Assembly (NCBI GenBank): GCA_028817895.1
Contig: JAPPOQ010000033.1
Span: 62,001-126,000 of the forward strand
DNA length: 64,000 bases
Source of the DNA: Ahrensia sp.
Lineage (GTDB): Bacteria > Pseudomonadota > Alphaproteobacteria > Rhizobiales > Rhizobiaceae
Direction: 5' to 3'
Position numbers and translations under genes: made by a program. The notes beneath the pieces were generated by a model. That model had not been told where the DNA came from. It saw nothing but the letters and a program-made list of their open reading frames with translations, and searched no databases. Shown piece after piece: positions 17,085-61,742 of the stretch. The first letter of the stretch is position 1, and every line of letters starts with the position of its first letter.

Positions 17085-17267
17085 AACACTCCTCCCGAAT
17101 CTCCTCGGGGCCGAGTGTCGGCCAAATCATTGATGTGACGCAAGATGCTTTCGTTCACACTTTAGGCATGATCTCATTTGTTTTCGCTCATCGGAGCGCC
17201 TTGCAATCGCCAAACAGAATGTCACAGTGGCAGAATTGGGGGCAAAATGCCGATTGAGGAGGAACTC

Positions 17268-18620
17268 ATGGCAAATAATGGATCAGGGCCCGGCTACGCA
17301 TCGCCAGCCGAAGCGATGAAGGCAGGCCGCGAAAAGCTGCTCTACACGGTGGCGCTTTATGTCGGGACAGGGGTGGAGAAGCCTGATTACTTGGCGACAG
17401 TGGATGTCGATCCCGACAGCCCGACCTACTCGCAAGTGGTCGCGCGCACAGAGATGCCGCAGATCGGTGATGAGTTGCACCATTCCGGCTGGAATGCCTG
17501 CTCGAGTTGTCACGGTCATGCGCATATGAGCCGCCAATATTTGCTGATGCCGGGTGTACGCACCTCAAACATCAATGTGATTGATGTGTCGGACGCCAAA
17601 AATCCGCGTCATCACAAGGTGGTGTCGGGGGAAGACATCAAGGCCAAAACGAACCTTTCAGCGCCACACACGGTGCATTGCCTGCATTCCGACATCATCA
17701 TTTCCATGCTTGGCGACGCTGATGGAAACGGGCCGGGCGGCTTCCTGCATCTCGATCAGAATTTCGACATCGTGGGGCGTTGGGAAAACGACCTTGGCGA
17801 CATGAAGTACAACTACGACTTCTGGTATCAGCCGCGCCACAACATGATGGTTTCATCCGAATGGGGTGCGCCCAACACCTTCATGCCCGGTTTTGATCTG
17901 GAAGATGTCGGTGCCGGAAAATACGGCCAGACCATTCATTTTTGGGACTTTGAAGGCAAGAAGATCGTCAAATCCATCGATATGGGTGCGGACGGCATGA
18001 TTCCGCTGGAAGTGCGCGGAATGCACGACCCGGCCTCGAATGAGGGCTTCTTTGCCGCCACTTTGTCATCGAATGTTTTCCGCTGGTGGAAGACCGATGA
18101 TGGAGATTTCGAGATCGAGAAAGTCATCGACGTGCCGACCATCGATGTCGAGGGCTTCCCGGTGCCGATGCCGTCGCTGATCACGGATATTCTGATTTCG
18201 ATGGATGACAAGTATCTGTATTTCGCCAACTGGCTGCATGGTGATTTGCGCCAGTATGACATCACCGACCGCGCCAATCCCAAACTCACCGGTCAAGTCT
18301 GGCTGGGTGGGCAGCTCGGCAAGGCGCCCGAGGTCAATGGCGTGACGGTGCAGGGAGCGCCGCAGATGATCCAGCTTTCGTTGGATGGCAAGCGTCTCTA
18401 CGTCACCACTTCGCTCTTCTCAACCTGGGACAATCAGTTCTACCCGGACATGAAAGACAAGGGTGGGCAGATGTATATGATCGATTGCGACACGGAAAAT
18501 GGCGGCATGACCATCAATCCGGATTTCGTGGTCGATTTTGGCAATGAACCCAACGGCCCGTCGCGAGCGCACGAAATGCGCTATCCCGGCGGCGACGTGA
18601 CCTCCGACATCTGGATGTAG
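17268..18620 (+). CDS. mtoX: Methanethiol oxidase, SBP56 (selenium-binding protein) family
   Basis: About 450 residues, a beta-propeller of the SBP56 family. The family hallmark HHSGWNACSSCH lies near residue 71, with further conserved stretches such as NVIDVSDAKNPR, TPHTVHCL-like APHTVHCLHSD and HGDLRQYDI. Characterised bacterial members oxidise methanethiol with O2 to formaldehyde, H2S and H2O2 and need copper. The context fits: divergent SCO1 chaperone and exported Cys/His proteins, with a ferredoxin directly downstream. ATG 17268 has GAGGAGGAAC at ideal spacing. No signal peptide is seen, whereas a periplasmic site has been described for a Hyphomicrobium enzyme; longer in-frame starts do not supply one either. 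Confidence 0.88.
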   Translation: MANNGSGPGYASPAEAMKAGREKLLYTVALYVGTGVEKPDYLATVDVDPDSPTYSQVVARTEMPQIGDELHHSGWNACSSCHGHAHMSRQYLLMPGVRTSNINVIDVSDAKNPRHHKVVSGEDIKAKTNLSAPHTVHCLHSDIIISMLGDADGNGPGGFLHLDQNFDIVGRWENDLGDMKYNYDFWYQPRHNMMVSSEWGAPNTFMPGFDLEDVGAGKYGQTIHFWDFEGKKIVKSIDMGADGMIPLEVRGMHDPASNEGFFAATLSSNVFRWWKTDDGDFEIEKVIDVPTIDVEGFPVPMPSLITDILISMDDKYLYFANWLHGDLRQYDITDRANPKLTGQVWLGGQLGKAPEVNGVTVQGAPQMIQLSLDGKRLYVTTSLFSTWDNQFYPDMKDKGGQMYMIDCDTENGGMTINPDFVVDFGNEPNGPSRAHEMRYPGGDVTSDIWM

Positions 18621-18647
18621 TCAACGGGCTTGCCGCAAGGTCTTTTC

Positions 18648-18986
18648 GTGGCAGAGCAAAAACACCGCGTCACCATTAACAACAGAGGTGGCGCGGTGAT
18701 TGAGGTCGCGGAAGACCAGACGATCTATGACGCGGCCTTGGCGGCGGGCTTTCAACTGCCCATTGCCTGCAATTATGGCGGCTGCATCACCTGTGCGGGA
18801 AAGCTTCTCTCAGGCCGCGTGCGCCAACCGAAGGGCACGGCTTTGAACAAGCGCCAAAGCCAGGCGGGCTACATTTTGATGTGTGTGGCCCGCCCCAAAG
18901 AGGACTGCGCCATCGAAGTCGGCGTCGAAACGCATGGACAACTCTATCGCAACCCATTTGCGGCACCGCAGAAACGAAGCGTTTGA
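18648..18986 (+). CDS. Plant-type [2Fe-2S] ferredoxin
   Basis: About 112 residues with the plant-type cluster pattern C-x4-C-x2-C ... C: CNYGGCITC, then ILMCVARP 29 residues further on. GTG 18648 is taken as the start because it has AAGG upstream and opens right before the fold; an upstream TTG at 18630 is possible. It is 27 bases behind mtoX and surely co-transcribed. A ferredoxin beside methanethiol oxidase may carry electrons for the oxidase or for a reductase elsewhere; no partner reductase is encoded nearby. The fold ends with a Pro/Lys/Arg tail. Confidence 0.85.
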   Translation: MAEQKHRVTINNRGGAVIEVAEDQTIYDAALAAGFQLPIACNYGGCITCAGKLLSGRVRQPKGTALNKRQSQAGYILMCVARPKEDCAIEVGVETHGQLYRNPFAAPQKRSV

Positions 18987-47756: not shown

Positions 47757-48215
47757 ATGTCGAGAAAAATGCGAGCTCCGGATTTCGGCAAGTTCGCGCG
47801 GCAAACGCGCCGTTTGCGCATCGCGAAGCCTTCAGATCAAGCCCGCTTGGAGCTCGAGTGCAAAGTCCACTATGCTGGCAGTCCTTACCACAAAAGAGAT
47901 CCGGGTGACTTCGGTCTCACGCCTCCATCAAGTCCTCGTCCTGACAAAACACTGTGCGATTCCAGCCCTGTCCGTTCTGTTAAAGATGCCATTGCTTTGC
48001 TTAGGGAGGGCGTGCGACAAGGCTTGTGGGATGACCGCGACGTTAATGGCTTTCCACGTACGCTGTGGTGCGTCGTTGACGAGCATGTCTACGAAGCAAG
48101 ATGCAGCAACGCGGAAAATGGCGAGTATCATGGATACCCGCTCCTGAAGGAAGACGCGTTTCGTTTGCTTGTGATCGAGCGGTACGCAGAGTTTTGGCCG
48201 AATGACGATGCTTGA
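47757..48215 (+). CDS. Unrecognised protein, first gene of a two-gene overlapping operon
   Basis: A 152-residue soluble protein with a conserved-looking central block, YHKRDPGDFG then LTPPSSPRPDKTLCD, followed by a helix (DAIALLREGVRQGL) and a strand-rich end (RTLWCVVDEHVYEARC, YHGYPL). I have a general memory of similar proteins but no named family, so no function is assigned. Its basic N-terminus (MSRKMRAPDFGKFARQTRRL) could contact nucleic acid. It overlaps the next gene by 8-14 bases. Base use looks more AT-rich than that of its neighbours. Confidence 0.7.
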   Translation: MSRKMRAPDFGKFARQTRRLRIAKPSDQARLELECKVHYAGSPYHKRDPGDFGLTPPSSPRPDKTLCDSSPVRSVKDAIALLREGVRQGLWDDRDVNGFPRTLWCVVDEHVYEARCSNAENGEYHGYPLLKEDAFRLLVIERYAEFWPNDDA

Positions 48216-49488
48216 ATTTAGTGTTGATGAATGGACCAACATTTCCGATGAATCGGAAGATGATTGGGCCACCGGCCAACTTCGCATTGCGATTGAGGAC
48301 GATGTGCTGACGCGGGTGGAAGACCTGCACAGTCGGTCCATGCGAGATCACATCCGCGTTTCGGTCGCACCTTTGGCGCGTTGGTTGTTGTCGAACTATT
48401 GGCGCATCATGTTTGAGCCTCTCCCTGCGACCGACTCCATGCCGAGTATTGACTGGTCTCTCGCCCATTCGATGAGCTCAGTTGGTGGGGAGTATGTTTG
48501 GCCGCATCTGACATTTGTAACCAACGGAAAGATACTCGAATTGACCGGTGACAACGGTCCGCGCGATCAAAGCCGTCCAATATCATTTACAAATCTGAAT
48601 GATCGTCGCTTCGTCACCCTTGAGTCTTTCAGTGAGGCGGTGGACGGTTTACTGCAACAAACAGTTGAGCGGGTTGCGGCACTGCATGACAGCGATCTCT
48701 GTCGCCTCTGGAATGAATTTCTCGAAGAACGGCAGGACCCAGAGATCGTCTTCTACCGAGAGATTGAAGCGCGACTTGGTTTCCAGCCGGGAGACGCGCC
48801 ACGGCATATTGTCTTAGGCTGGGGAAATTTGGTTGAAGAGTTCAGCGAACGCGCCATCGAAGAGGTGGTTGCCGCTCACAAAGATCTTGATGCCGCTAAG
48901 GCCGTCGCAGAGCATGCCAAAGCCTCGACCGCACGGTTGTATCCCGAGTGCTTAAACGACATTCGTAAAACTTCCATCGACCAAACGTCTCAGTTTACGG
49001 GGCCAGCATATTTGGTTGCAAACCAGTTGGCGGCTAAAGTTCGCGACGTGTTGGGGATTGATGGTCCTTTCGAAGACGCCGATTTTCAAGACCGTTTCGG
49101 TTTGGATGCGGCGGCGTCGCACGAGGAATCGTCTCAGGACTTTGCTGCGAGTTGGACGAGGGAAGACTCGTTGAGCTTCGTGCATCGCTCGCGCAATGCC
49201 GTAGGAAGGCGTTTTGAATTGGGCCGTATTGTGGGAGATTGGCTCGGCTTTGAGCAGTCTCGTTTGAGGCCGTCTCTCGATGCAAAGACGTGGCGTCAGC
49301 AATTTCAGAAGTCTTTCAGTCAGGCACTCTTGGCGCCACTGAACGTTATTGAAAGCATGCTTCCGTCGGGCAGCTCATGGGATGATGATGCAATTCGCGA
49401 TGTTGCCGAAAGTTTGCAAGTAAGCGAGATGACCGTGTGGTCGACCCTCCGCAACAATCATGTAATTGCGCGCGACTTCAATTCGTAA
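48202..49488 (+). CDS. Unrecognised 428-residue protein with ImmA/IrrE-like C-terminus but no HExxH
   Basis: The N-terminal third is strand-rich, then RVSVAPLARWLLSNYWRIMFEP, a Trp-rich stretch. The C-terminal 75 residues (RQQFQKSFSQALLAPLNVIE, then IRDVAESLQVSEMTVWSTL) resemble the tail of ImmA/IrrE metallopeptidase-type proteins, an Ala-rich helix then a short helix-turn-helix. No HExxH zinc motif is present, so it is not an active ImmA-type protease as read. It starts at ATG 48202 or 48208, both inside the end of the preceding gene, showing tight coupling. Function unknown; a toxin-antitoxin or defence pair is one hypothesis. Confidence 0.72.
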   Translation: MTMLEFSVDEWTNISDESEDDWATGQLRIAIEDDVLTRVEDLHSRSMRDHIRVSVAPLARWLLSNYWRIMFEPLPATDSMPSIDWSLAHSMSSVGGEYVWPHLTFVTNGKILELTGDNGPRDQSRPISFTNLNDRRFVTLESFSEAVDGLLQQTVERVAALHDSDLCRLWNEFLEERQDPEIVFYREIEARLGFQPGDAPRHIVLGWGNLVEEFSERAIEEVVAAHKDLDAAKAVAEHAKASTARLYPECLNDIRKTSIDQTSQFTGPAYLVANQLAAKVRDVLGIDGPFEDADFQDRFGLDAAASHEESSQDFAASWTREDSLSFVHRSRNAVGRRFELGRIVGDWLGFEQSRLRPSLDAKTWRQQFQKSFSQALLAPLNVIESMLPSGSSWDDDAIRDVAESLQVSEMTVWSTLRNNHVIARDFNS

Positions 49489-49975: not shown

Positions 49976-51601
49976 ATGCTCGGACTGATGCAGGACTGGC
50001 CGCTGCTGTGCCACAAAATTCTCGATTACGCCGCCGCACAACATAGCCGCCGTGAAATTGTCTCGCGCTCGGTCGAAGGGCCGATTGTGCGCACCACTTA
50101 TGGTGATATCCACGCGCGCGCCAAACGTGTCGCCCAAGCACTGGATCGCGATGGATTTGGTCTTGGCGATCGGATCGGCACGCTGGGCTGGAATACGGCC
50201 CGTCATATGGAGGCCTGGTACGGCATTATGGGTGTGGGCGGCGTCTATCACACACTCAATCCGCGCCTGTTTCCCGATCAGATCGCCTGGATCATGAATC
50301 ATGCCGAAGACAAGGCACTGTTTGTCGATCTTTCCTTCATGCCAATTGTCGAAGCCATCGCCGACAAGGTGCCCTCGCTGAAGCAGATCATCGTGATGAC
50401 CGATGCTGAGCACATGCCCAGTTCGAAGCTTGATCTTGTCTGCTTTGAGGACTGGATCGCGCAGGGCGACGGCGATTTCGCCTGGGCGCAAGTCGATGAG
50501 AACACGGCCTCCGGCATGTGCTACACCTCGGGCACGACCGGTGACCCGAAGGGCGTGGTCTATTCGCATCGCTCAAATGTGCTGCACGCCATGTTGGCAA
50601 GCTTGCCCGATGCGCTTGGCATGTCCTGCAACGAGGTCATCATGCCCGTTGTCCCGATGTTTCATGCCAACGCCTGGGGCATCGCCATGTCTGCCCCCAT
50701 GACCGGCGCCAAGGTTGTCAATCCCGGTGCCGCCATGGACGGCGCTTCGATTTATGAACTGCTGGACAGCGAGAAGGTCACCTTCACCGCGGCGGTTCCA
50801 ACGGTTTGGCTGATGTTGCTTGGCTATCTTGAAGAAACCGGCAAGGAGCTTCCCCATCTGAAACGTGTGGTGATCGGTGGTTCGGCTTGTCCGCGCGCCA
50901 TGCTGGAGAAGTTCCAGAACAATTATGATGTCGAGGTGGTGCACGCCTGGGGCATGACGGAAATGTCGCCGCTCGGTTCGCTCGGTTCGCTCAAGCCTGA
51001 ATACAACCACCTGAAGGGCGCGCAGCGTCTCGATATTCAAGAGAAGCAGGGCTACGCACCCTTTGGGGTCGAGATGAAAGTGACCGATGACGAGGACAAG
51101 GCAATGCCGTGGGACGGCAAGACCTTCGGCCGACTTAAAGTGCGTGGCCCGGCAATTGCCAAGGGTTACTATGGTGGAGCGGGTGCCGAGCAATTTGACG
51201 AGGACAACTGGTTCGACACCGGCGATGTCGCCCATATCGATGAATTTGGCTATATGCAGATCACCGACCGCGCCAAAGACGTCATTAAGTCGGGCGGTGA
51301 GTGGATCTCGACCATCGATCTTGAGAATCTGGCCGTCGGACATCCCGATGTTGAAGAGGCAGCTGTGATCGGTATCGCACACCCAAAGTGGGATGAACGG
51401 CCGCTGCTCATATGCATCCGCAAGCAGGGCAAAGACCCCTCGAAAGAGGACATTTTGGGCTATATGGAGGGCAAGATCGCCAAATGGTGGATGCCGGACG
51501 ATGTCGCCTTCGTGGATGAAATTCCGCATACGGCAACCGGCAAAATCCAGAAGACGGAGCTGCGCAAGCAGTTTGCCGATCATGTTCTTCCGACGGTGTG
51601 A
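49976..51601 (+). CDS. Acyl-CoA ligase, DmdB/medium-chain type
   Basis: A 541-residue AMP-forming acyl-CoA synthetase. The P-loop is [18 protein letters not shown] near 180-197, the FHANAWGI block holds His and Trp used by methylmercaptopropionate-CoA ligase (DmdB) for its substrate, then [36 protein letters not shown] and TATGKIQK with the catalytic Lys. Overall form, length and the [11 protein letters not shown] start resemble the DmdB/AlkK branch, which takes medium-chain or 3-methylmercaptopropionic acid. ATG 49976 has TGGAGG upstream. The DUF1499 gene follows in 16 bases. The substrate is inferred from general resemblance only. Confidence 0.88.
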
Positions 51602-51617
51602 GGACTGACGTCCGCCC

Positions 51618-52613
51618 ATGACGAGCATCGCCAACAGGCTGGAGCGACTGGAGCGCCACCCGTCTCGCGCAGCCTGGTGGTGCCAGAAACTCGCTCTTTT
51701 CTGCTTGCCATTTCTGGCCATGGTGGTGATCGGCCACAAGATCGGAGCGATCGACACGATCCCGACCTTTTGGATGTTGGGTCTTGGCTTTGTTTTGCTG
51801 ATGACGTCGCTGATCGCCGGTGGTCAGGCGTTCTACGAATTGTGGACCTACGGTCATCAAGGCGGACTGAAAGCGTCTGCCGGCGTGATGCTGAGCCTGG
51901 TTCTGCTTACGCCTTATTTGTGGGTGGCGTTTAATGTCTATCGTCTGCCGCAGTTGCACGACATCTCAACAGACCTCGTGCAGCCACCTTCATTTGAAAA
52001 CGCTTTGGAGGATCGCACGTCGCAAATGAATGCGATCAGGGAGCCGTCGCCACAAGACGCCAAGCGACAATTGGCGGCCTATCCTCGGGTGTCGGCCCGT
52101 CGTTATCCGCTTGGCGCCGGGCGTGTGTTCAAAACCGCCGCCGAACTAATTGCCGATCGCGGCTGGACAATCCTGACAACGGAGACGGAGCAAGGGGAAG
52201 CGCGCATTGATGAGGAGGGATCCGGTCTCGTCGCTGAGCCGACCGTTACATCGGATGGCCGCCCAATTAACATTCCTATTCCGCTTTCGCGTCCCATTAT
52301 CCTGGAGAACGCGCCAGACGAAGCGCCCAGCCAGGAGTTTGAAGCGCAACAAGTCTCCCCGGTCGGGCGCGATGCAAATCTGGAGGCCGCCGAGCTTGAT
52401 GAGCGCTATATCGAGGCCGTCGCGTTCAGCTTCGTCTTTGGGTTTGAAAGTGATGTGGTGCTGCGCCTTATTGAAGAAGACGAGGGAACGCTTGTCGACA
52501 TGAGATCGGTGTCCCGTTTCGGCCAGCATGATCTGGGCGCAAATGCCAGGCTGGTTGAAGGGTTCATGGCCGATCTGGATGATGCACTTCAGGGACTCAA
52601 TCAGGGGCGTTAG
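51618..52613 (+). CDS. DUF1499 family membrane protein
   Basis: A 331-residue protein with three hydrophobic segments in the first 115 residues (CLPFLAMVVIGHKIGAI, FWMLGLGFVLLMTSLIAG, SLVLLTPYLWVAFNVY), then a soluble DUF1499 domain: DISTDLVQPPSFE near its start and MRSVSRFGQHDLGANARL near its end. DUF1499 proteins are common in Alphaproteobacteria and their function is not known. It follows the acyl-CoA ligase by 16 bases. The linker between the halves of DUF1499 (about 190-265) is longer than usual and Glu/Pro-rich. Confidence 0.85.
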   Translation: MTSIANRLERLERHPSRAAWWCQKLALFCLPFLAMVVIGHKIGAIDTIPTFWMLGLGFVLLMTSLIAGGQAFYELWTYGHQGGLKASAGVMLSLVLLTPYLWVAFNVYRLPQLHDISTDLVQPPSFENALEDRTSQMNAIREPSPQDAKRQLAAYPRVSARRYPLGAGRVFKTAAELIADRGWTILTTETEQGEARIDEEGSGLVAEPTVTSDGRPINIPIPLSRPIILENAPDEAPSQEFEAQQVSPVGRDANLEAAELDERYIEAVAFSFVFGFESDVVLRLIEEDEGTLVDMRSVSRFGQHDLGANARLVEGFMADLDDALQGLNQGR

Positions 52614-52773
52614 ACCGTCAGGATCGGTTGCTAACAGTCGGGATTGTAAAGACAAACGAACCTGTATAGCGTTTCGCACGGTTTGAACGGGCCTATGCGG
52701 CAAGAGTGATGACAGCCCTGGTCAACACATGGTGTGGCGCGGAACGACGCGCAGGTCAGTACGGGTTGACCGA

Positions 52774-54009
52774 ATGACCACCGGACTGCTCGTGCTCGCT
52801 GTGATTGCTTTCGGCTTCGCCTTGATTGCCAAACGCGTCACCACATCCATCGTCACGGCTCCCATGGTCTTTATTCTGTTTGGCCTGGCCATGTCGCAGA
52901 CCGGTTTGCTCAAGCATCCGGCCATGGAAGAAACTCTGCATTTGGTGGCGGAAATCACTCTGGTCTTGTTGCTGTTTCTCGATGCGTCGCGGACCAATTT
53001 CGGCGCGTTGCGACAACGTTTCGTGTGGCCTGCACGGATGCTGATCATCGGGTTGCCACTGGCCATTGTGATCGGATCTGTGGTTGGCGCGGCGTTCCTG
53101 ACACAGTTTCCGTTGCCGATCATCGTCCTTGTAGCAGCGATTCTGTCGCCCACCGATGCCGCACTCGGGCAGGCGGTGATATCGAATGAAGCCGTGCCGG
53201 AACGCACGCGTCGCGCTTTGACTGTCGAAAGCGGCCTCAATGACGGGTTGGCTCTGCCGCTGATCCTGTTCATCGCAACTTTGTGCGCTCAGTTCGTCAG
53301 CGACACTGACACCGACTGGATCGCATTTGGTGCCAAGCAAATCATTCTGGGGCCGCTGGTGGGCATAGTGGTTGGCGTGGCCGGCGCAAAGCTGATGGCT
53401 TGGGCCGATGAGAACGGTTACACCGCTGATATATTTGAAGGCGTCGGGGTAATCGCCCTTGCCATGTCGGCCTTTTTGGCCGCCAATTTGGTTGGCGGCA
53501 ACGGCTTCATATCGGCCTTTGTGGCTGGGCTGTGCTTTGGCGGCATCATGAAGAATCAATGCGAGTTCATCTATGAATTTGCCGAAGGCGATGGCCAGGC
53601 GCTCACCTGGATGGCGTTTTTCCTGATTGGTTTGTTGCTTGTGCCAGAAGCACTGCACTCTCTTGATGTCACAACCGCGCTCTACATACTGGCAAGCCTG
53701 TTTGTCGTGCGGCCACTGGCAATCTACATTTCGCTTATCGGCACTGATGCCACCACGCCCACGCGGCTGTTTTTTGGCTGGTTCGGGCCGCGTGGACTTG
53801 CTACGGCCTTGTTCGCGTTGATGGTTGTTGATTCCATCGTGCTCGGTTTCGGAGAGGAGGTGCTGCATGTCGCCATTAACGCTGTCCTGTTCAGCACCAT
53901 TTTACATGGCCTCAGCGCAGCTCCATTGGCCGAGCTTTATGCCAGCCGATTTCCGCACGAGAAGCGAAGCCGGTCATCGCACCACCACATGCGTCGGGAG
54001 CCGGATTGA
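52774..54009 (+). CDS. CPA1-type Na+(K+)/H+ antiporter
   Basis: About 411 residues with 11-12 transmembrane segments. The CPA1 signatures are LLLFLDASRTN, then ILSPTDAALGQAV and VESGLNDGLALPL, the latter containing the catalytic-site Asn-Asp pair. It exchanges a monovalent cation for protons across the inner membrane. ATG 52774 is preferred because it begins the first helix (MTTGLLVLAVIAFGF); the frame is open to 52729. The C-terminus is a short, basic cytosolic tail with no TrkA domain. It stands 40 bases before the Rieske-glutamate-synthase-like gene and could share its transcript. Confidence 0.88.
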   Translation: MTTGLLVLAVIAFGFALIAKRVTTSIVTAPMVFILFGLAMSQTGLLKHPAMEETLHLVAEITLVLLLFLDASRTNFGALRQRFVWPARMLIIGLPLAIVIGSVVGAAFLTQFPLPIIVLVAAILSPTDAALGQAVISNEAVPERTRRALTVESGLNDGLALPLILFIATLCAQFVSDTDTDWIAFGAKQIILGPLVGIVVGVAGAKLMAWADENGYTADIFEGVGVIALAMSAFLAANLVGGNGFISAFVAGLCFGGIMKNQCEFIYEFAEGDGQALTWMAFFLIGLLLVPEALHSLDVTTALYILASLFVVRPLAIYISLIGTDATTPTRLFFGWFGPRGLATALFALMVVDSIVLGFGEEVLHVAINAVLFSTILHGLSAAPLAELYASRFPHEKRSRSSHHHMRREPD

Positions 54010-54049
54010 GGCGCCATCTGACTTTGACTTCGCTATCGGAGCCTGCTGA

Positions 54050-55660
54050 ATGAACAAACGCCCACTGATGAAGCTGGATGATCTTAAGGATCGCCAACCG
54101 GAATACGCGCTCGTTGCAGGTGTCGATCTGGTTGTCGTGCGCTTTGATGATCGGGTTTCGGTGATGTATGGACGCTGCCTGCATCGCGGAGCGCTGATGT
54201 CGGACGGCTATGTGGATGGCGACAACCTAATCTGCGGGCTGCACTACTGGGATTATCGGCTCGATTCAGGCGTTTCGGAATATGACAACTCCGAGGCGCT
54301 GAACAAGTTCTCGTCCTGGATCGAAGATGGCGATGTGCTCATCGATGAGGATGAGATTGCGCAATGGGGTTATGACAACCCGCAGCCATTCAATCGAGAC
54401 GCCTATCTGGGCCTTTACGCTGACACCAGCCACGGCACAGATGAAGAGTCGCATACGGGGCTGATCCAGCAATATGCCCGTGATGGACTTTCGAAAACCG
54501 GCCATCACGGCGTTGTGGACGCCATGGGTGTGCCGCGCCCGCAATTGCCGAATTGGGACGATATTCAGATACTCACAGCCCAACTGCACAAGCCGCCCTT
54601 GCTTGATGAAGATGAAGTGGGCACCGACGTGGTGATCGGCCCGAACGCACAAAAGCCGCTGAAGATGGATATTCCACTCTTCGTTTCAGATATGAGCTTT
54701 GGCGCGTTGTCGGAGCCTGCCAAGATCGCCATGGCTCGAGGCGCAGAACTGGCAGGAACAGGCATTTGCGCTGGTGAAGGTGGCATGCTGCCGGAAGAGC
54801 AGGCGGCGAACTCTCGTTATCTTTACGAGTTGGCGTCTGCGCGTTTTGGGTTCGATTGGGACAAGCTCGACAAGGTTCAGGCCTTTCACTTCAAGGGAGG
54901 GCAAGGCGCGAAGACAGGCACTGGTGGCCATCTTCCCGGCAACAAGGTGAAGGGCAAGATCGCCAAGGTTCGTGGGCTGGAACCTGGCGAATCCGCCATC
55001 TCCCCGGCTCGCTTTCCTGAATGGACCGAAGTTTCGCAGATCAAGGAGTTTGCCGACGAGGTGCGTGACCGCACCGGCGGCATTCCCATTGGCTACAAGC
55101 TTTCCGCCCAGCACATCGAAAAGGATATCGATGCTGCCCTTGAGGTGGGCGTTGACTACATCATTCTGGATGGTCGCGGCGGCGGGACGGGCGCCGCCCC
55201 GGTTATTTTCCGAGACAATATTTCCGTCCCAACCATTCCGGCTCTGGCTCGCGCACGGCGACACCTGGATGCATCTGGCCGATCCGATGTCAGCCTTGTC
55301 ATCACAGGTGGCTTGCGCAAACCGGCGGATTTCGTGAAAGCGCTCGCGCTGGGTGCTGATGCAATCGCTCTCTCCAACGCGGCCATGCAAGCCATTGGCT
55401 GCATCGCCATGCGTGCCTGTCACACCAACAATTGCCCGGTGGGCATTGCCACGCAGAAGCCGCATCTGGTGTCGCGTTTGGTGGTCGAAAAATCCGCCCG
55501 CCAGCTGGCCAATTTCTTCTCGGCGTCCGTGGAACTGATCCAGGTCATGGCGCGCGCCTGCGGGCATGATCATGTTTCCAAGTTCAACGCCGATGACCTG
55601 ACAACCTGGAAAAAAGAGATGCGCGATCTGACCGGCATCTCTTACGGAGGTGTTGCTTGA
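54050..55660 (+). CDS. Rieske domain fused to a glutamate-synthase-like FMN/3Fe-4S protein
   Basis: A 536-residue protein. Residues 5-110 are a Rieske [2Fe-2S] domain with C43-x-H45 and C62-x2-H65. From about 165 on it is a GltB-type FMN barrel with VSDMSFGALSEPAK, GEGGMLPEEQ, the ILDGRGGGTGAAP loop and a [3Fe-4S] site of the glutamate synthase spacing, C451-x5-C457-x4-C462. There is no glutaminase domain, so it cannot be a complete glutamate synthase; relatives are annotated FMN-binding glutamate synthase family. The Rieske domain would let it accept electrons from a redox partner. It is the first gene of the six-gene cluster and overlaps the next by 4 bases. No known substrate. Confidence 0.88.
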   Translation: MNKRPLMKLDDLKDRQPEYALVAGVDLVVVRFDDRVSVMYGRCLHRGALMSDGYVDGDNLICGLHYWDYRLDSGVSEYDNSEALNKFSSWIEDGDVLIDEDEIAQWGYDNPQPFNRDAYLGLYADTSHGTDEESHTGLIQQYARDGLSKTGHHGVVDAMGVPRPQLPNWDDIQILTAQLHKPPLLDEDEVGTDVVIGPNAQKPLKMDIPLFVSDMSFGALSEPAKIAMARGAELAGTGICAGEGGMLPEEQAANSRYLYELASARFGFDWDKLDKVQAFHFKGGQGAKTGTGGHLPGNKVKGKIAKVRGLEPGESAISPARFPEWTEVSQIKEFADEVRDRTGGIPIGYKLSAQHIEKDIDAALEVGVDYIILDGRGGGTGAAPVIFRDNISVPTIPALARARRHLDASGRSDVSLVITGGLRKPADFVKALALGADAIALSNAAMQAIGCIAMRACHTNNCPVGIATQKPHLVSRLVVEKSARQLANFFSASVELIQVMARACGHDHVSKFNADDLTTWKKEMRDLTGISYGGVA

Positions 55661-56052
55661 ACGCAGCCGAGTCAATCTTCTTTGTCGCTCAGGTCTGGGC
55701 CACCATTGGCGCTGTTGTGGCGACCGCTTTCTTGCTGTTTGGTATCGACCGGATCGATGAAGATGCCCGCGGCGCCTATATCTTTCGCCCGCTGCTTGTG
55801 CCCGGGATTTTGTTGATTTGGCCGCTTGTTTTGTGGCGCTGGTGGGTGCTTGAACGCGATCTCGACAATTGGCGTAACCGCCATGCGCCTCCCCGTCGAG
55901 CTCATCTGTTCATCGCGGTGATGTTTGTCGTCGCCATTCCGCTCATCATTGCGGTGAGCTGGTCGCTGCGGCAGGAGTGGCAGGCCGATTTCGAGCCAGT
56001 CAAGATCTCCTTGCTTCATGGCTCCGCGGGACAGGGGGATGCGGCCGCATGA
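55657..56052 (+). CDS. Small membrane protein of the Rieske cluster
   Basis: A 131-residue protein with three hydrophobic segments (about 8-28, 44-62, 85-104), a short cytoplasmic loop with WRWWVLERDLDNWRNRH and a polar C-terminus. The start is a TTG at 55657 overlapping the previous stop (TTGA), supported by GGAGG at 55646-55650. No homology comes to mind. It is coupled to the next gene by ATGA. It may be a membrane anchor or a subunit for the heme protein that follows. Confidence 0.75.
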   Translation: MNAAESIFFVAQVWATIGAVVATAFLLFGIDRIDEDARGAYIFRPLLVPGILLIWPLVLWRWWVLERDLDNWRNRHAPPRRAHLFIAVMFVVAIPLIIAVSWSLRQEWQADFEPVKISLLHGSAGQGDAAA

Positions 56053-57101
56053 GCGTCAAATACATCCCCGTTCAGTGGAATCCGAACAAGTGGAAGTACA
56101 ACGCCGTCATGTTGATCGGCGTGTTCGCCTATCTGTGGCTGTTCATTGAATGGACGCCGGCCATTATGAGCAATGATGGCCGCATCAATGGGCAAATCCA
56201 CAACGCCCGGGCTTTCGGTTCCTGCGCGTTTTTGATGCTCACGGTGATCCTCTGCATCGGGCCGTTGGCTCGGCTCGACAAGCGCTTTCTGCCGCTGCTC
56301 TACAACCGCCGCCATTTCGGTGTGATGACGCTGTTCGTGGCGATCACTCATGCGGGCTATATCATCAATTGGTATTTCTCGTTTTCAGCCTCGAACAAAT
56401 ATGAGGCGCTGCTGTTTGCCAATACGAGCTATGGTCAGCTTTCAGGCTTTCCTTTTGAGGTTTTCGGCATTTTCGCCGTGTTGTGCCTGGCGCTCCTGGC
56501 TGCCACCAGCCACGATTTCTGGATGAAGTTCCTGACGCCGCGCATCTGGAAGCGCATCCACTATCTCGTCTATTTCGCTTACATATCCGTGGTCGCGCAT
56601 GTTGGTCTTGGCATATTGCAGGACCAGCAAGATAAGATCTTCATCGTCGTGTTCATCGGTGGAGCCCTGACCGTGGCCGCGCTCCACATTCTGGCTGCGT
56701 TGCAGGAACGACGCAGCGGCGATCCCGATGCACTCTCGAGCGGCGAGTGGGTTGCGATATGTCATGCAAGCGAATTGCGCGAAGGCTACGCCAAGGTCGC
56801 GCGTCTTTCCGGCGAAGAACGTGTGGCCGTGTTCCTTCAGGACGGCAAGATATCGGCCATTTCGAACGCCTGTGCTCATCAAAACGGTCCGCTGGGTGAG
56901 GGGCGAATTCTGGACTGTCTGGTGACATGCCCATGGCACGGCTTCCAGTATGATGTGCGCAGCGGGCGCTCACCCGCACCTTTCACTGAGAAGGTGCCGA
57001 CCTATCAGGTGAAACTCGCTGGCGATCAGGTCCTGGTCAACGCCAACGCCAATCCGCCCGGCACTTTTGTTGAACCGGTTCCACTTCCCAGCGGAGCGTG
57101 A
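56049..57101 (+). CDS. Ferric-reductase-like transmembrane protein with C-terminal Rieske domain
   Basis: A 350-residue protein. The N-terminal two thirds has six or so transmembrane segments of the ferric-reductase-like heme-binding type, with candidate heme ligands in AITHAGYI and in RIHYLVYFAYISVVAHVG, where two His lie 14 residues apart. The C-terminal third (about 235-340) is a Rieske domain with C275-x-H277 and C294-x2-H297. This is an unusual fusion: it could carry electrons between a membrane heme pair and a Rieske centre in the cytoplasm or periplasm. ATG 56049 overlaps the preceding stop. It is the likely membrane hub of the cluster. Confidence 0.88.
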   Translation: MSVKYIPVQWNPNKWKYNAVMLIGVFAYLWLFIEWTPAIMSNDGRINGQIHNARAFGSCAFLMLTVILCIGPLARLDKRFLPLLYNRRHFGVMTLFVAITHAGYIINWYFSFSASNKYEALLFANTSYGQLSGFPFEVFGIFAVLCLALLAATSHDFWMKFLTPRIWKRIHYLVYFAYISVVAHVGLGILQDQQDKIFIVVFIGGALTVAALHILAALQERRSGDPDALSSGEWVAICHASELREGYAKVARLSGEERVAVFLQDGKISAISNACAHQNGPLGEGRILDCLVTCPWHGFQYDVRSGRSPAPFTEKVPTYQVKLAGDQVLVNANANPPGTFVEPVPLPSGA

Positions 57102-57106
57102 AGATC

Positions 57107-57871
57107 ATGGCCGAGAAAGACACGCCCTATTTCGTTGGATTTCTGCCCATACCCGCGGGGCTGAAACTGTTCCTGCTGGTTGTGTCGCTTTCGCTGATCA
57201 CCGGTTTCGCGGCCGGTGGCATTCTGGTCGGCATATCGCAGGATGATCCGGGGCAGGCCGGTTTCCGGTTCGACCATGGTCGCCAAACCGTGACTGGTGT
57301 GTTTGAATCGCATCCCTATCCAATGCTGCACATCACGATGGGAAGTGAGCATCTGCCCACGGGCAAGACGATCATGGTGTCGGGTCAAGGCAAGACCAAT
57401 ATCATGCGAGGTCGAAGCGATGAGCTGGATGGAAAGATCGTGGAGATATCCGGTGTCATCGTGCAGCGCGGCGATCTCAAAATGTTGCAGATCGCAGGCG
57501 GTCGTCGCGGCCTGAAACCGACAGAGGAAGACGGGGTGGTTCCTGTTGCAGAAGACCTCGGTACCTGGCGCGTAAAGGGCGAAATCTGTGACGGGAAATG
57601 TCTCGCCGGTGCCATGAATCCGGGCCGAGGCATTGCCCACAAGGCCTGTGCCAATCTGTGTCTGATCGGTGAAATTCCGCCAGTTTTTGTCTCGACCAAG
57701 CCGATCGAGGGCGAGGAATATTTCCTCATCGCCGGGCCGGACGGCAAGGAAATGACACAAGACACCTACAACTATGTCGGTCAGTTCGTTGAGGCCGAAA
57801 CCCGCATAGAGCGTCGCGGCAATCTGCTCGTCATGCGCATGGACCCGGCAAAGATGCAGGTGACGCCATGA
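57107..57871 (+). CDS. Membrane-anchored protein with a Cys/His motif shared with the mtoX island
   Basis: A 254-residue protein with one transmembrane helix near the N-terminus (about 20-42) and a soluble domain. Near 158-192 lies GEICDGKC165 ... H178-x2-C181-x3-C185 with IP following (positions 161, 165, 178, 181, 185). The same order, GEI-x-D-x2-C, then AH-x2-C-A-x2-C-x2-G-x-IP, appears in the exported protein at 16620-17084. It looks like a metal- or cluster-binding site. ATG 57107 has GGAG upstream; a GTG at 57098 overlaps the previous stop. Translation is coupled to the following small gene. Function unknown. Confidence 0.8.
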   Translation: MAEKDTPYFVGFLPIPAGLKLFLLVVSLSLITGFAAGGILVGISQDDPGQAGFRFDHGRQTVTGVFESHPYPMLHITMGSEHLPTGKTIMVSGQGKTNIMRGRSDELDGKIVEISGVIVQRGDLKMLQIAGGRRGLKPTEEDGVVPVAEDLGTWRVKGEICDGKCLAGAMNPGRGIAHKACANLCLIGEIPPVFVSTKPIEGEEYFLIAGPDGKEMTQDTYNYVGQFVEAETRIERRGNLLVMRMDPAKMQVTP

Positions 57872-58134
57872 AGCGCGTGGTAGGACTGCTGCTGGCCGCA
57901 TTCATCGGCTTCTTGCTCTACTACACGTCACGTTTCTGGACCTTCCGCCTGTGGGACGGGCCGGGCCTGTTTGGCATTCGGGAGCTTCCGCCACAGGGCG
58001 GACTTTTCGCCCGTTGGCTGCGTGGAACGGACTTCACGCCGTTTGAACTGGTCCTTTGGGCAATTGCCGCATTTCTTCTGCTGACTATGGTGCAAAAACT
58101 CTTTGATGCCCTGTTTTCCGGCCCAACTGAGTGA
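57868..58134 (+). CDS. Small two-helix membrane protein of the Rieske cluster
   Basis: An 88-residue protein with a hydrophobic helix at about 4-22 and another at about 60-80; the middle is polar (LWDGPGLFGIRELPPQGG). It overlaps the preceding gene by ATGA and ends 54 bases before the ThDP gene, in a gap that also holds an AAAGG ribosome-binding site. No family is recognised. It is small enough to be an accessory subunit of a membrane complex. Confidence 0.72.
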   Translation: MKRVVGLLLAAFIGFLLYYTSRFWTFRLWDGPGLFGIRELPPQGGLFARWLRGTDFTPFELVLWAIAAFLLLTMVQKLFDALFSGPTE

Positions 58135-58188
58135 GGCCCGGCATCGGTTACCAATATCGAACATCGTTTTGATGTAGAAAGGCAAATT

Positions 58189-60159
58189 ATGGCTGACGAA
58201 GCACTGGAATGGATCAAGATCGGCGAAGTCGGCGACCTGCCCGATGGAAGGGTGAAAACAGTCACAGCACGCACTGTTTCGCTTTGTCTTTCTCACTTTG
58301 ACGGACAATGGGCGGCCATGGACAATCGCTGCCCGCATCAGGGCGGACCGCTTGGTGAAGGGTCTATAGAAAAGGGCGTCGAGGGCCAGTGCTGGATCCG
58401 CTGCCCCTGGCATGGCTGGGATTTCGACCCTCTCACCGGTGCGCCTCCCGGGGGGCACGAAGATACGGGACAAAAGCTGTATCCGGTCGAAGTGCGCGGC
58501 GAAGAAATCTATATCGGCCTGGAGCCGGAACCGCCGCATGAGCGCAATGTCTCCGATGTCATGGCCGAGACCATGGAAAATTGGGGCGTCAGGCACGTCT
58601 TCGGGATGGTCGGTCACTCCAATCTCGGCCTTGCGGAAGGCATCCGTCAGCGCGTTCTGAACGGGACCATGAAATATATCGGCGTTCGCCATGAAGGTGT
58701 CGCCGCCTTTGCCGCCTGTGGCTATGGCAAGCTGACCGGAAAGGTCTCCGCCTGCCTGACGATTGCGGGACCGGGCGCAACCAATCTGCTGACCGGCCTT
58801 TGGGACGCGAAGGTTGACCGTGCGCCGGTGCTGGCGCTCACCGGGCAGGTGCAGACGCAGGTGCTTGGGCCGGGTGCGTTTCAGGATATCGACCTGCAAT
58901 CGGCTTTCGAAGCTGTGGCGCGCTTTTGCCAGCCTGTGCTTGAAGGCTCCAACCATGCCGAACTCATGTCGCTGGCCTGCAAGACGGCACTTGTCGAGCG
59001 CGATGTCACCAATCTAATCTTCCCCGACGATGTGCAAACCGTGCCGAGCGACGCTGAGGCGCAGACGCCGGAAGGACGTCTTGGTAGCATTCATGTCGTG
59101 CCGTCATCCGAGGATATCGACAAGGCCGTTGACATGATTTCCGCTGCCGAAAGGCCGATCTTTGTGATCGGCCATGGCGCCGTTGAGTCGGTCGACAAGA
59201 TCATTGCTTTTGCCGAAACGCTTGGCGCGCCCGTTCTCACCACCTTCAAGGGCAAAGGGCTGATCCCGGATTCCCATCCGAATGCCGCCGGTGTGCTCGG
59301 TCGCTCGGGAACACCTATTGCCAGCTGGTTCATGAACGAGGCCGACCTGATCATCGCGCTCGGCTCGTCCTTCTCCGATCACACCGGCATCGAACGCTCC
59401 AAGCCGATCATTCAGGTCGATTTCGAGCGCATGCAGCTTGCTCGTTTCCATCCGGTCACGCTGCCGATTTGGGGTGATATTGGAACATTCTGTGAGACCG
59501 TTGCGCCGAAGGTCGAGCGCAAGAGCGTCGATCAGGTTGCCGAGATCGCCGAGCGTTGGGAAATCTGGCGCAAGGAGAAGCAAACCAGACTGTCGGAGAA
59601 CTCCGGCAATGGCATTCATTCGGCCACAATTTTCGATGCGCTCACAAGGACCTGCCCGGAAGATGCGATTTTGGCCGTTGATGTGGGCAACAACACTTAT
59701 TCCTTCGGCCGATACTTTGAATCGAAGGGTCAAAGGGTGCTCATGTCGGGCTATCTCGGGTCGATTGGCTTTGCTTTCCCCGCAGCGATCGGGGCCTGGG
59801 CCGCAACGCAGGATCATGAGGAATATGCCGGTCGCAAGGTCATCTCCATTTCCGGCGATGGCGGTTTTGGCCAGTATCCGATGGATTTCACCACGGCAGT
59901 GAAATACGGCATGAACATCACCCATATTCTGCTTAACAACTCGCAGCTTGGGAAAATCTCCAAGGAGCAGAAAGCGGGCGAGTGGGAAGTCTGGGAGACC
60001 AGTCTCCACAATCCGTCCTTTGCCGCCTATGCGCGCCTTTGCGGCGGGCACGGCGTTCGCGTGACCGAAGACAGCGAGCTGGAGGCCGCAATGAAAGAGG
60101 CCTTTGAATATGACGGCCCGTCGCTGATCGAGATCATCTCTGATCCGGAATTGATCTGA
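58189..60159 (+). CDS. Rieske domain fused to a thiamine-diphosphate-dependent enzyme
   Basis: A 656-residue fusion. Residues 5-112 form a Rieske domain (C48-x-H50, C72-x2-H75). Residues 115-656 are a three-domain ThDP enzyme of the acetolactate synthase/pyruvate oxidase type: PYR domain with the activating Glu169 (VRHEGVAAFAACGYGKLTG), a central domain, and the PP domain with the ThDP motif SGDGGFGQYPMD (D557) to LLNNSQLGKI (N583-N584). It would decarboxylate or cleave a 2-oxo acid or sulfo-analogue, and the Rieske centre could receive electrons from the enamine intermediate, as flavin or FeS do in pyruvate oxidases. AAAGG precedes ATG 58189. Substrate unknown. Confidence 0.9.
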   Translation: MADEALEWIKIGEVGDLPDGRVKTVTARTVSLCLSHFDGQWAAMDNRCPHQGGPLGEGSIEKGVEGQCWIRCPWHGWDFDPLTGAPPGGHEDTGQKLYPVEVRGEEIYIGLEPEPPHERNVSDVMAETMENWGVRHVFGMVGHSNLGLAEGIRQRVLNGTMKYIGVRHEGVAAFAACGYGKLTGKVSACLTIAGPGATNLLTGLWDAKVDRAPVLALTGQVQTQVLGPGAFQDIDLQSAFEAVARFCQPVLEGSNHAELMSLACKTALVERDVTNLIFPDDVQTVPSDAEAQTPEGRLGSIHVVPSSEDIDKAVDMISAAERPIFVIGHGAVESVDKIIAFAETLGAPVLTTFKGKGLIPDSHPNAAGVLGRSGTPIASWFMNEADLIIALGSSFSDHTGIERSKPIIQVDFERMQLARFHPVTLPIWGDIGTFCETVAPKVERKSVDQVAEIAERWEIWRKEKQTRLSENSGNGIHSATIFDALTRTCPEDAILAVDVGNNTYSFGRYFESKGQRVLMSGYLGSIGFAFPAAIGAWAATQDHEEYAGRKVISISGDGGFGQYPMDFTTAVKYGMNITHILLNNSQLGKISKEQKAGEWEVWETSLHNPSFAAYARLCGGHGVRVTEDSELEAAMKEAFEYDGPSLIEIISDPELI

Positions 60160-60167
60160 CGGCAGTC

Positions 60168-61742
60168 CTACTGCGACGGTGGCGAGGCGCGCAGCACGGT
60201 GTTGCGCGCTTCCGGTTCCAAGACGCTGCGCTGGTCCGAGGCCCATTCTACGGTGATCGGCGGAAGTGAGGTTGCGCCATCAGGAAGCCCGAGGCTGACC
60301 ATCGTCGACATATCCGACCCAAGACCCTGACCAACAATATGTTCAAAGATCGGTCCATCGCCGATGCGGATTTTCGCACCAATGCTCGCCGCAGCATCGG
60401 GCAGTCGCACGCTTAGGAAATCGCGTTCGCTGCGGTTGCGATACAGCACCGGCTCGCCATCGATATTGACCCAGACCAGATCAAGCCGACCATCACCGTC
60501 TACATCAACCAAAAGCGGCGCGATGCCATAGGCCGCATTGGCGGCCGCCTCGCTCTGGACAAATCCACCGTCTGAACCCAGCAGCACCTTGCCGGGAAGC
60601 TTGGCAAATCGGTGGATCGGCCATTTCGCATAGTTCTGCGCCACCATCAGATCGAGCTTGCCGTCGAAGTTCACATCCGCTGCGCTCGCGCCCCAGGCGA
60701 AGCCGAAGCCCGTGAGTGCTGCCTCCTGCGTGATTTCAGTGAACTCAAAGCCACCATCATTGCGCAAAAGAACCCACTCATTGTCAGCTGGCTGGTCGTC
60801 GCGCCGGTCCCCATTGAGAAAGAGTGGAGGAATGGAGTTTCCGATATTAGACAGGAAGAGGTCCTGGTCGCCGTCTCCATCTGCATCAAACACCGCAAGT
60901 CCCATCCAGAACCCGTAGCCGGATTGGTAGGACGCACGCTCAAACTGTCCGCCGCCCAGATTGCGCAAAAGCTCCAACTGGCCCGTATTCTGCGCGAGCA
61001 CGAGATCGGGCAGGCCGTCGTTGTCGAGATCTGTGAAACTGGAAACGAATGTGTTTTGCAGCCCGCCCGCAATGTCATCGGTAACATCGGTGAAGGTAAA
61101 ATCGCCATCATTGCGCAAAAGCACATTGCGCTTTGCGTGGGCTGCGTCGTTGAAGACGGGCGAACGGAAATTGGCCGGATCAACGAAAACGCTCACATAC
61201 AGATCGATATCGCCATCACGATCATAGTCGGCGGCCGCCAAATCGACGGCAACGGAGTCCGTCGGCAGACTGAATTCCACGTTGCGTGCTTCAAACCGCG
61301 CGCCCTGATTGATCCACAGCGTCACTCCCGCATTTCCAGCGGTTAGCAGGTCGACGTCTGCGTCATCATCGATATCGAAAGACAGCGCACCATAGGTCGC
61401 GATGGTGTCGCCAAGTTCCATGCTGGCAGCGAGATCGACAATTGTGCCGTCGCGCCAATCCAGCAGAGCGTCGGCCTGGCCATCCGAACCACCAAGAAAC
61501 ACCTCATCATCGCCGTCTCCATCGACGTCGATGGCTGCGGAGGCCGCAAGCGGATGCGTGCTCGTCTTTTCCCAAACATGCACAAAAGGCAGGCCGACGC
61601 GTTCAAAACTTGCAGCAGCGATCGCGTTGTTCGGCTCAATGTCGCGTTCGGACGGCACAAGCCAGAATGCCGCTCCCGCCAGGGCAACGGCCAAAAGCGC
61701 AGCCACAGCAAGGCCCATGCGCAAGATGAATCGGCCAGACAT
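60168..61742 (-). CDS. FG-GAP/VCBS-repeat exported protein with ASPIC-like C-terminus
   Basis: A 524-residue protein with an N-terminal membrane anchor or signal (LAVAALLAVALAGAAFWLV) and about six FG-GAP/VCBS repeats with calcium-type Asp motifs (AIDVDGDGDDEVFLG, DYDRDGDIDLYV, DLDNDGLPDLVLA, DADGDGDQDLFLS, DVDGDGRLDLVWV). The C-terminal 80 residues (SIGAKIRIGDG, VSLGLPDGATS, ITVEWASDQRS) resemble the ASPIC/UnbV domain. Such proteins form beta-propellers outside the cytoplasm. It is convergent with the Rieske-ThDP gene, 8 bases away. A link to the cluster is possible but not shown. Confidence 0.85.
   Translation of the reverse strand: MSGRFILRMGLAVAALLAVALAGAAFWLVPSERDIEPNNAIAAASFERVGLPFVHVWEKTSTHPLAASAAIDVDGDGDDEVFLGGSDGQADALLDWRDGTIVDLAASMELGDTIATYGALSFDIDDDADVDLLTAGNAGVTLWINQGARFEARNVEFSLPTDSVAVDLAAADYDRDGDIDLYVSVFVDPANFRSPVFNDAAHAKRNVLLRNDGDFTFTDVTDDIAGGLQNTFVSSFTDLDNDGLPDLVLAQNTGQLELLRNLGGGQFERASYQSGYGFWMGLAVFDADGDGDQDLFLSNIGNSIPPLFLNGDRRDDQPADNEWVLLRNDGGFEFTEITQEAALTGFGFAWGASAADVNFDGKLDLMVAQNYAKWPIHRFAKLPGKVLLGSDGGFVQSEAAANAAYGIAPLLVDVDGDGRLDLVWVNIDGEPVLYRNRSERDFLSVRLPDAAASIGAKIRIGDGPIFEHIVGQGLGSDMSTMVSLGLPDGATSLPPITVEWASDQRSVLEPEARNTVLRASPPSQ

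Follow-up and report, generated by a model that had tools for sequence, protein, structure and literature searches.

Several described systems resemble, in one part or another, the locus analyzed here. In MsrPQ (YedYZ), the heme membrane protein MsrQ feeds the periplasmic protein MsrP, and an operon of this type is induced by hypochlorous acid (HOCl) from a promoter of the extracytoplasmic function (ECF) group ECF16, (T/C)GTAAC-N17-CGAA (available portion of PMC8315932). In the available portion of PMC3591440, Rieske is already cataloged among the modules found in bacterial proteins with a ferric-reductase domain, and a YedZ/STEAP pattern is given in which the first canonical heme histidine is replaced by arginine and three other histidines are kept; that of PMC5859297 describes Class II CDGSH proteins with a Glu_synthase domain. 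Here we report on a cluster of six genes, g1 to g6, in a 64,000-nucleotide stretch of Ahrensia sp. contig JAPPOQ010000033.1 (assembly GCA_028817895.1, positions 62,001 to 126,000 of the forward strand; hereafter the window). A glutamate synthase-like protein (g1), a ferric reductase-like protein (g3) and a thiamine diphosphate (ThDP) enzyme (g6) encoded in this cluster each carry a Rieske domain. The cluster looks like an uncharacterized electron-transfer system, and g1, g6 and the membrane parts are separable modules rather than an obligate six-gene pathway.

The six open reading frames are co-directional on the forward strand (Table 1). Four of their five junctions are 4-base overlaps (55657-55660, 56049-56052, 57098-57101 and 57868-57871), and g5 and g6 are separated by a 54-base gap. 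The original prediction, made from the sequence alone, had placed six co-directional, tightly joined genes with three different Rieske fusions at 54050-60159, and it was correct on each of these points, the coordinates included. Pfam recognizes all three fusions, and the CxH...CxxH Rieske ligands are kept in 96-99% of 80 sequences for g1 (C43, H45, C62 and H65), in 97-100% of 40 sequences for g3 (one row incomplete) and in all 45 sequences for g6, one archaeal and one mycobacterial sequence among them. This conservation indicates that the domains are genuine, and at the level of the ligand residues nothing speaks for the possibility, raised with the original prediction, that clusters are not bound. 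Three of the ten Rieske matches in the 3.54-Mb genome fall in this cluster. Two details required revision. The start of g3 is corrected to 56049, and an antiporter gene, u3, which ends 40 bases upstream of g1 and so outside the range of the original prediction, had been overlooked. In addition, g2, g4 and g5, none of which matches a Pfam family at E <= 0.01, had been described as small or single-span membrane proteins; hydropathy gives three membrane segments for g2 (one marginal) and two for g5, so that g4 alone is single-span.

Table 1. Genes of the cluster and the adjoining antiporter gene, with positions in the window
Gene	Product	Coordinates	Strand	Length and basis
u3	NhaP-type cation/proton antiporter	52729..54009	+	426 aa; Pfam Na_H_Exchanger, 1.9e-34
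g1	Rieske (aa 5-80) + GltB-type flavin mononucleotide (FMN)/3Fe-4S glutamate-synthase core	54050..55660	+	536 aa; Pfam Rieske + Glu_synthase
g2	Membrane protein	55657..56052	+	131 aa; hydropathy
g3	Six-transmembrane ferric reductase (YedZ/MsrQ-type), presumed cytochrome b, with C-terminal Rieske (aa 233-319)	56049..57101	+	350 aa; Pfam Ferric_reduct + Rieske
g4	One transmembrane helix + presumably periplasmic domain, CDGKC...HKACANLC motif	57098..57871	+	257 aa; predicted structure
g5	Membrane protein	57868..58134	+	88 aa; hydropathy
g6	Rieske (aa 7-85) + pyruvate-oxidase-like ThDP enzyme	58189..60159	+	656 aa; Pfam Rieske + TPP_enzyme N/M/C

A scan for g1 of contigs from 84,980 species genomes yielded 79 loci (numbered with L; genomes are numbered with G). 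Since the scan patterns derive from the window protein, close relatives are favored. The record names are mostly alphaproteobacterial, many of them from marine genera, with three from Bacteroidota (L089, L090 and L092) and one from Comamonadaceae (L076). Adequate flanks, meaning at least 2.5 kb upstream and at least 5.2 kb downstream, are present in 58 of these loci (L080 has just 3.8 kb downstream of g1), and the identity thresholds were set by us. Beside g1 in the 58 loci we observed g6 in 36, g3 in 34, g4 in 34, g2 in 32 and g5 in 7; the antiporter is present in 28 and c107, a DUF5996-like protein, in 8. Together these make up 20 patterns of content and order. In nine of the 58, g1 stands alone, with none of these partners. 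For all 79 loci the corresponding counts are 35 for the antiporter, 35 for g2 and 7 for g5. Within the 58 loci g6 and g4 go together, with both present in 29, neither in 17 and a single one in 7 and 5 (Fisher 2e-5, kinship uncorrected). Homologs without a conserved neighborhood would have spoken against the original prediction, and the presence of g6 beside g1 in 36 of 58 loci is the opposite result.

The c107 protein scores 24.1 bits against a DUF5996 cut-off of 25, and in Persicobacter g1 is followed by c422, which is distantly related to c107. Because c107 never overlaps with g2-g5 in the 58 loci, we considered it as an alternative to them; this holds only locally, as L023, L029 and L074 have c107 by g1 and g4 elsewhere. 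In G059 (6% contamination), g1 and c107 are on one contig and g3-g4-g6 on another. Two other genes were noted near the cluster in the window. An FG-GAP/ASPIC-UnbV repeat protein (60168-61742, reverse strand) has a 35% relative close to g1 in L055, the sole locus in that search to show one. An acyl-CoA ligase (49976-51601) passes NCBIfam PRK06018 (981 of 766 bits), and nearly reaches the 3-(methylthio)propionyl-CoA ligase cut-off (813 of 822 bits); nothing closely related to it is present in the 79 g1 loci.

The genes also keep company when they are not neighbors. In a class sample, an even set of 385 genomes searched at E <= 1e-150 for g1, E <= 1e-130 for g6 and E < 1e-50 for g4, relatives were found in 14, 15 and 16 genomes, respectively. 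Four of the 14 g1 relatives are of a CDGSH type discussed below, nine have the Rieske region covered and one, in G406, is cut by a contig end; g1 and g6 both lie at contig ends there, with the N-terminus unseen, and G406 was counted as a Rieske-type genome. The resulting ten Rieske-type g1 genomes contain g6 in 8 cases and g4 in 8 cases. At the genus level the association has p 7.7e-8 for g1-g6 and for g1-g4, and p 1.2e-6 for each pair when the window's own genus is left out (hypergeometric, phylogeny ignored). In many cases they are not linked, as in G069, G203, G183 and G287 of the class sample and in G001 and G006 of the own genus, in which 7 of the 12 genomes searched have g1 and 5 have g6. 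Starting from g1 loci that lack a local partner gives a similar result: g6 is found elsewhere in 6 of 23 such genomes versus 15 of 385 in the class sample, and g4 is found elsewhere in 12 of 24 (E <= 1e-20), or 11 at E < 1e-50, versus 16 of 385. The g4 search covered 29 genomes, five of which have a local g4. Three genomes are common to both searches by their coordinates (G203 = L029, also G803; G183 = L081, also G816; G287 = L080, also G815), so the two counts are not wholly independent. Thus, co-occurrence of the genes across Alphaproteobacteria, put forward as a check in the original prediction, is supported by conserved neighborhood and by unlinked genes alike. Protein distances correlate as well (r 0.80 for g1-g6 and 0.92 for g6-g3), for which shared ancestry alone could suffice. 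A phylum sample contains g6 in 5 of 398 genomes, all of the window's own class.

The core of g1 belongs to PF01645 (4e-91), and its 3Fe-4S cysteines (C451, C457 and C462) are kept in 97-99% of the 80 sequences. Pfam finds no glutaminase domain in the protein, and its score against the NCBIfam equivalog for the glutamate synthase large subunit is 129 bits versus a cut-off of 1047, which together rule out an ordinary glutamate synthase. The residues that bind 2-oxoglutarate in glutamate synthase are mostly kept when the alignment is judged by eye, which is not a test. The closest described proteins are the Class II CDGSH-Glu_synthase proteins (available portion of PMC5859297). They share with g1 a GltB-type core that is ~67-68% identical and an N-terminal, histidine-ligated 2Fe-2S domain, but g1 has a Rieske domain in place of the two CDGSH domains; it shows no zf-CDGSH match in the Pfam scan and lacks the two N-terminal CDGSH motifs. 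The same exchange is seen in all four Rieske-less g1 relatives of the class sample (G082, G262, G347 and G271), where two CDGSH motifs replace the Rieske domain; zf-CDGSH was found by Pfam in both of the two relatives on which it was run. In a tree of the GltB core built without the Rieske columns, a branch supported at 100/98 separates the 27 Rieske-type rows, which come from Alphaproteobacteria, Comamonadaceae, Bacteroidota and haloarchaea, from all other rows. Six rows are labeled CDGSH, of which the L205 frame has no N-terminal Fe-S domain, leaving five. This tree is consistent with a single domain exchange followed by spread.

The best solved relative of g6 in a PDB search is the ThDP- and FAD-dependent pyruvate oxidase PoxB (E 5e-72), with which it shares three TPP domains and, as judged by eye, seemingly the glycine-rich motifs of the middle domain. 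It differs from PoxB by its N-terminal Rieske domain and by the missing C-terminal tail, since the alignment stops at PoxB residue 527 of 572. PoxB F465, as numbered from this alignment, corresponds to K589 in g6, a lysine kept in at least 97% of the 45 sequences. Both curated cut-offs of the pyruvate-oxidase type lie well above the g6 scores (403 vs 742 and 319 vs 792 bits). Additional Fe-S domains are seen among the g6 relatives of the seven class-sample genomes that have g6 without g1: a CDGSH pair precedes the Rieske domain in G061 (L179, by Pfam), a CDGSH-Fer4_19-CDGSH array is present in G190 (L182, by Pfam), and a similar array is seen by eye in G144 and G244 (L181 and L184). The relatives in G063 and G401 are without an N-terminal CDGSH-type extension, and G292 has a long frame. 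That two unrelated enzymes, g1 and g6, recruit the same types of Fe-S domain fits a role of these domains as electron ports. At L180, in genome G063, the c107 protein directly follows g6, and this genome has no g1 match at E <= 1e-150.

Among the membrane proteins, g3 has a clear ferric-reductase domain (PF01794, 46.9 bits, cut-off 28), and its predicted model consists of six long helices and a Rieske domain (mean predicted local distance difference test score, pLDDT, 83.1), with dioxygenase Rieske ferredoxins as best fold matches. Residues R87, H89, H101, H155, H171, H184 and H213 are invariant in 41 sequences. With the register R87-x13-H101, which is our choice, R87, H101, H171 and H184 fit the arginine-plus-three-histidine pattern of YedZ/STEAP proteins (available portion of PMC3591440), H89, H155 and H213 being extra; g3 may bind heme. 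The Rieske-extended ferric reductases in the same source have the same domain pair as g3, in what is there a listing of modules without function or gene cluster. The likeness to MsrPQ (available portion of PMC8315932) extends to g4, a membrane-anchored and probably periplasmic protein encoded beside g3. However, g3 differs from MsrQ by its C-terminal Rieske domain and reaches only 43.8 of the 130 bits set for the NCBIfam MsrQ equivalog, and Pfam finds no MsrP molybdoenzyme domain in the 10 proteins of 49976-61742, which rules out an ordinary MsrPQ.

The predicted model of g4 (pLDDT 88.9) has one transmembrane helix and beta domains that are probably two barrels of the oligonucleotide/oligosaccharide-binding type; judged from charges, the soluble domain would be periplasmic. 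Its top Foldseek match is a single-stranded DNA-binding protein at E 2.2e-4 with a template modeling (TM) score of only 0.23-0.26, and a PDB profile search gives a single weak relative (E 9e-4). Residues K167, C168, H181, C184 and C188 are invariant in 38 sequences. Short matches to this C-terminal Cys/His motif region occur in 11 further class-sample genomes without a full-length g4, and the window itself contains one, in the center of a 154-residue protein without a Pfam family (16620-17084, reverse strand; E 1.2e-7). The gene for this protein adjoins one for SBP56 (17178-18620), with SCO1/SenC (15360-16283) and 2Fe-2S ferredoxin-like (18630-18986) genes also recognized there by Pfam. Relatives of SBP56 can be methanethiol oxidases.

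Homologs of g1 and g6 are also found on archaeal plasmids. Both g1 (59-61%) and g6 (57%) are present on plasmids of Salinirubellus, Halorarius and Halorubrum, at separations of about 1.4, 4 and 17 kb, and g6 alone was detected on one plasmid each of Haloferax larsenii and Mycobacteroides. Rieske ligands are seen in the translated Halorarius g1 and g6 and in the Mycobacteroides g6. Genes annotated nearby on the haloarchaeal plasmids include those for merA, peroxiredoxin, pirin, DUF302, rhodanese, DsrE and TauE/SafE, although no single plasmid need have them all. Among plasmids, the top relative of u3 (43%) comes from Phaeobacter, where msrA, msrB, redoxin and mercuric-reductase genes surround it. 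In two of the five Rhizobium plasmid matches, those that were examined (L209 and L210), the g4 relative follows a gene annotated as a Rieske protein, and ECF-type sigma factor genes lie nearby, accompanied by a peroxiredoxin-like gene in L209 and by NrsF and chlorite-dismutase-family genes in L210. On both plasmids a gene annotated as ThDP-binding, ~540 codons long, also lies a few kb from the g4 relative.

A gene pair for an ECF sigma factor and a zf-HC2 protein (Pfam on the L035 copy) adjoins the antiporter gene in L035, L043 and L224. In L184 it is found upstream of the gene for the CDGSH-Rieske-ThDP protein, and L055 has a less similar pair (37-39%) ~4.4 kb beyond g6. TGTAACC is seen by eye in three of the sigma-pair loci, and the longer pattern TGTAAC-N16-GCATC was read from GTAAC[CA] matches. 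A search of 229 loci (2.74 Mb including the window) gives 11 occurrences of its exact form, which are nine distinct loci given the duplicates L146/L184 and L215/L224; each other spacing from 10 to 23 yields 0-3 occurrences. In eight of the nine, the motif stands where the antiporter gene begins (-4 to 48 bases from a start that was extrapolated by homology), and in L184 it is 71 bases ahead of an ATG of the extended g6. It is present in 7 of 11 c107-type antiporter loci and in L224, a later locus with the gene order of the window. Compared with the ECF16/SigF promoter of msrPQ-type operons (available portion of PMC8315932), these related loci share the TGTAAC -35 element but differ in the -10 element, which is GCATC and not CGAA (a form that was not searched systematically), and in having the sigma factor paired with a zf-HC2 protein. 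For the window itself a GCATC-form ECF promoter was rejected, as 16 matches with up to 2 mismatches were found versus 14 expected. An element at 48516-48542 of the window (forward strand), TGTAACC with CGAA 14 bases on, resembles the ECF16/SigF promoter; it lies inside the open reading frame 48202-49488 and so may be due to chance.

The reading that we favor, tentatively and with somewhat less than even confidence, is that the cluster is an Fe-S-wired auxiliary oxidoreductase system that is linked to stress in part of its range. In such a system g6 would oxidize a 2-oxo acid and g1 would catalyze a two-electron reaction of the amino- or imino-acid type. For electron exchange with its partners each would use the ferredoxin-like Rieske domain that it carries, and not reduced nicotinamide nucleotides (NAD(P)H). 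Where g2-g5 are present, electrons could pass from the cytosolic g3 Rieske domain through heme b to quinone or to the periplasmic g4, making g3, a putative Rieske cytochrome b of the YedZ/MsrQ type, an optional membrane outlet; the antiporter would adjust cytosolic cations or pH. An ECF sigma factor probably turns the operon on in part of the range, suggesting that it is most likely used under oxidant, electrophile or envelope stress. We favor this reading because of the conserved neighborhood, the genus-level and unlinked co-occurrence, the haloarchaeal plasmids with g1 and g6, the exchange or addition of CDGSH domains, the YedZ-type pattern of g3, the absence of the PoxB tail from g6 and the ECF pair with its motif. 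Electron transfer through the Rieske domains, as proposed in the original prediction, gains indirect support from the dioxygenase-ferredoxin-like fold of g3 and from the CDGSH and Fer4_19 domains exchanged or added in relatives.

Several observations weigh against this reading. Neither g6 nor g4 is found, at the thresholds used, in 8 of the 23 g1 genomes checked (L030, L034, L039, L048, L070, L089, L090 and L093, of unstated completeness), and g1 is missing from 7 of the 15 class-sample genomes with g6 and from 8 of the 16 with g4. The g1-g6-g4 association is therefore real but not obligate, g1 must have a use alone, and the proposal of one six-gene pathway is not supported. The haloarchaeal stretches have no g4 match and their g3 matches are confined to Rieske regions; for g4, plasmid matches are listed only from Rhizobium, with none on the haloarchaeal or mycobacterial plasmids. 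The stress-type neighbors come from a few plasmids picked by homology and are selected examples. GTAAC[CA] alone is found upstream in 8 of 74 loci, and 300 sets of random windows average 2.9 and reach 8 at most, so that the short element is weak by itself. The exact motif is present in 0 of the 20 g4-type loci with an antiporter in the first set and is absent from the window, and the window's genome has no match to the L224 sigma factor.

A dedicated catabolic pathway, the model of the original prediction, would have g1 convert an amino acid to a 2-oxo acid, g6 decarboxylate it oxidatively and g3 deliver the electrons to the respiratory chain for growth. The enzyme classes fit serially, the 3Fe-4S cysteines of g1 are kept and g6 is nearest to pyruvate oxidases, but 17 of the 23 genomes whose g1 locus has no g6 show no g6 match at E <= 1e-120. 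No substrate transporter is among the identified partners (other conserved neighbor clusters, mostly from closely related Roseibium loci, are unannotated), and one would not usually expect a catabolic operon to have an antiporter and an ECF-type promoter. We consider this model rather unlikely. The same holds for the idea that these are independent enzymes with separate jobs, which have the same carrier domain and travel as a mobile set without direct electron exchange. The free separation of the modules and the homologs on plasmids agree with it, but it does not account for unlinked co-occurrence in the same genomes or for the finding that two unrelated enzymes have taken up the same kinds of Fe-S domain.

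Less probable still is a role in cation or osmotic homeostasis, in which antiporter-linked tuning of glutamate and K+ or pH in saline habitats would be the main function and the redox enzymes would act as sensors or glutamate suppliers. The antiporter does lie by g1 in 28 of 58 loci and directly upstream of the unlinked g6, with no g1 beside it, in G001 (L219). On the Halorarius plasmid an annotated antiporter gene starts 43 bases past g6 and is followed by an annotated K-channel gene on the opposite strand, and several records bear the names of marine or halophilic genera. Yet the antiporter is absent from 30 of the 58 loci, the Halorarius antiporter resembles u3 only weakly (38% over 82 residues) and the mycobacterial one has no match to it, and this role leaves g6, g3 and the Fe-S fusions unexplained. 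Anti-phage defense was set aside, as PADLOC gives no match for the cluster.

No recognizable description of Rieske-GltB fusions, Rieske-ThDP fusions or this cluster is among the open-access full-text matches listed. The remark in the original prediction that no described pathway of this composition is known agrees with these listed matches, although the Rieske-ferric-reductase and CDGSH-Glu_synthase architectures had already been cataloged (available portions of PMC3591440 and PMC5859297). Extending the Fe-S-wired reading, one could picture an undescribed Rieske-wired system common to bacteria and haloarchaea that, under oxidant or electrophile stress, replaces lipoate- and NAD(P)H-dependent steps (2-oxo acid oxidation and amino-acid redox chemistry) by direct exchange through built-in histidine-ligated 2Fe-2S domains, coupled to the antiporter and, in part of the range, to a trans-membrane heme relay; in this full form we regard it as unlikely. 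Three enzyme classes that are not commonly linked share one carrier domain and keep company across Alphaproteobacteria, two of them also in haloarchaea, and relatives of these enzymes carry CDGSH domains instead of the Rieske domain or besides it. If the direct wiring is true, it would be a modular means of joining metabolism and membrane; it would then also point to a role for the Glu_synthase/CDGSH fusions and broaden the known repertoire of MsrQ-type proteins.

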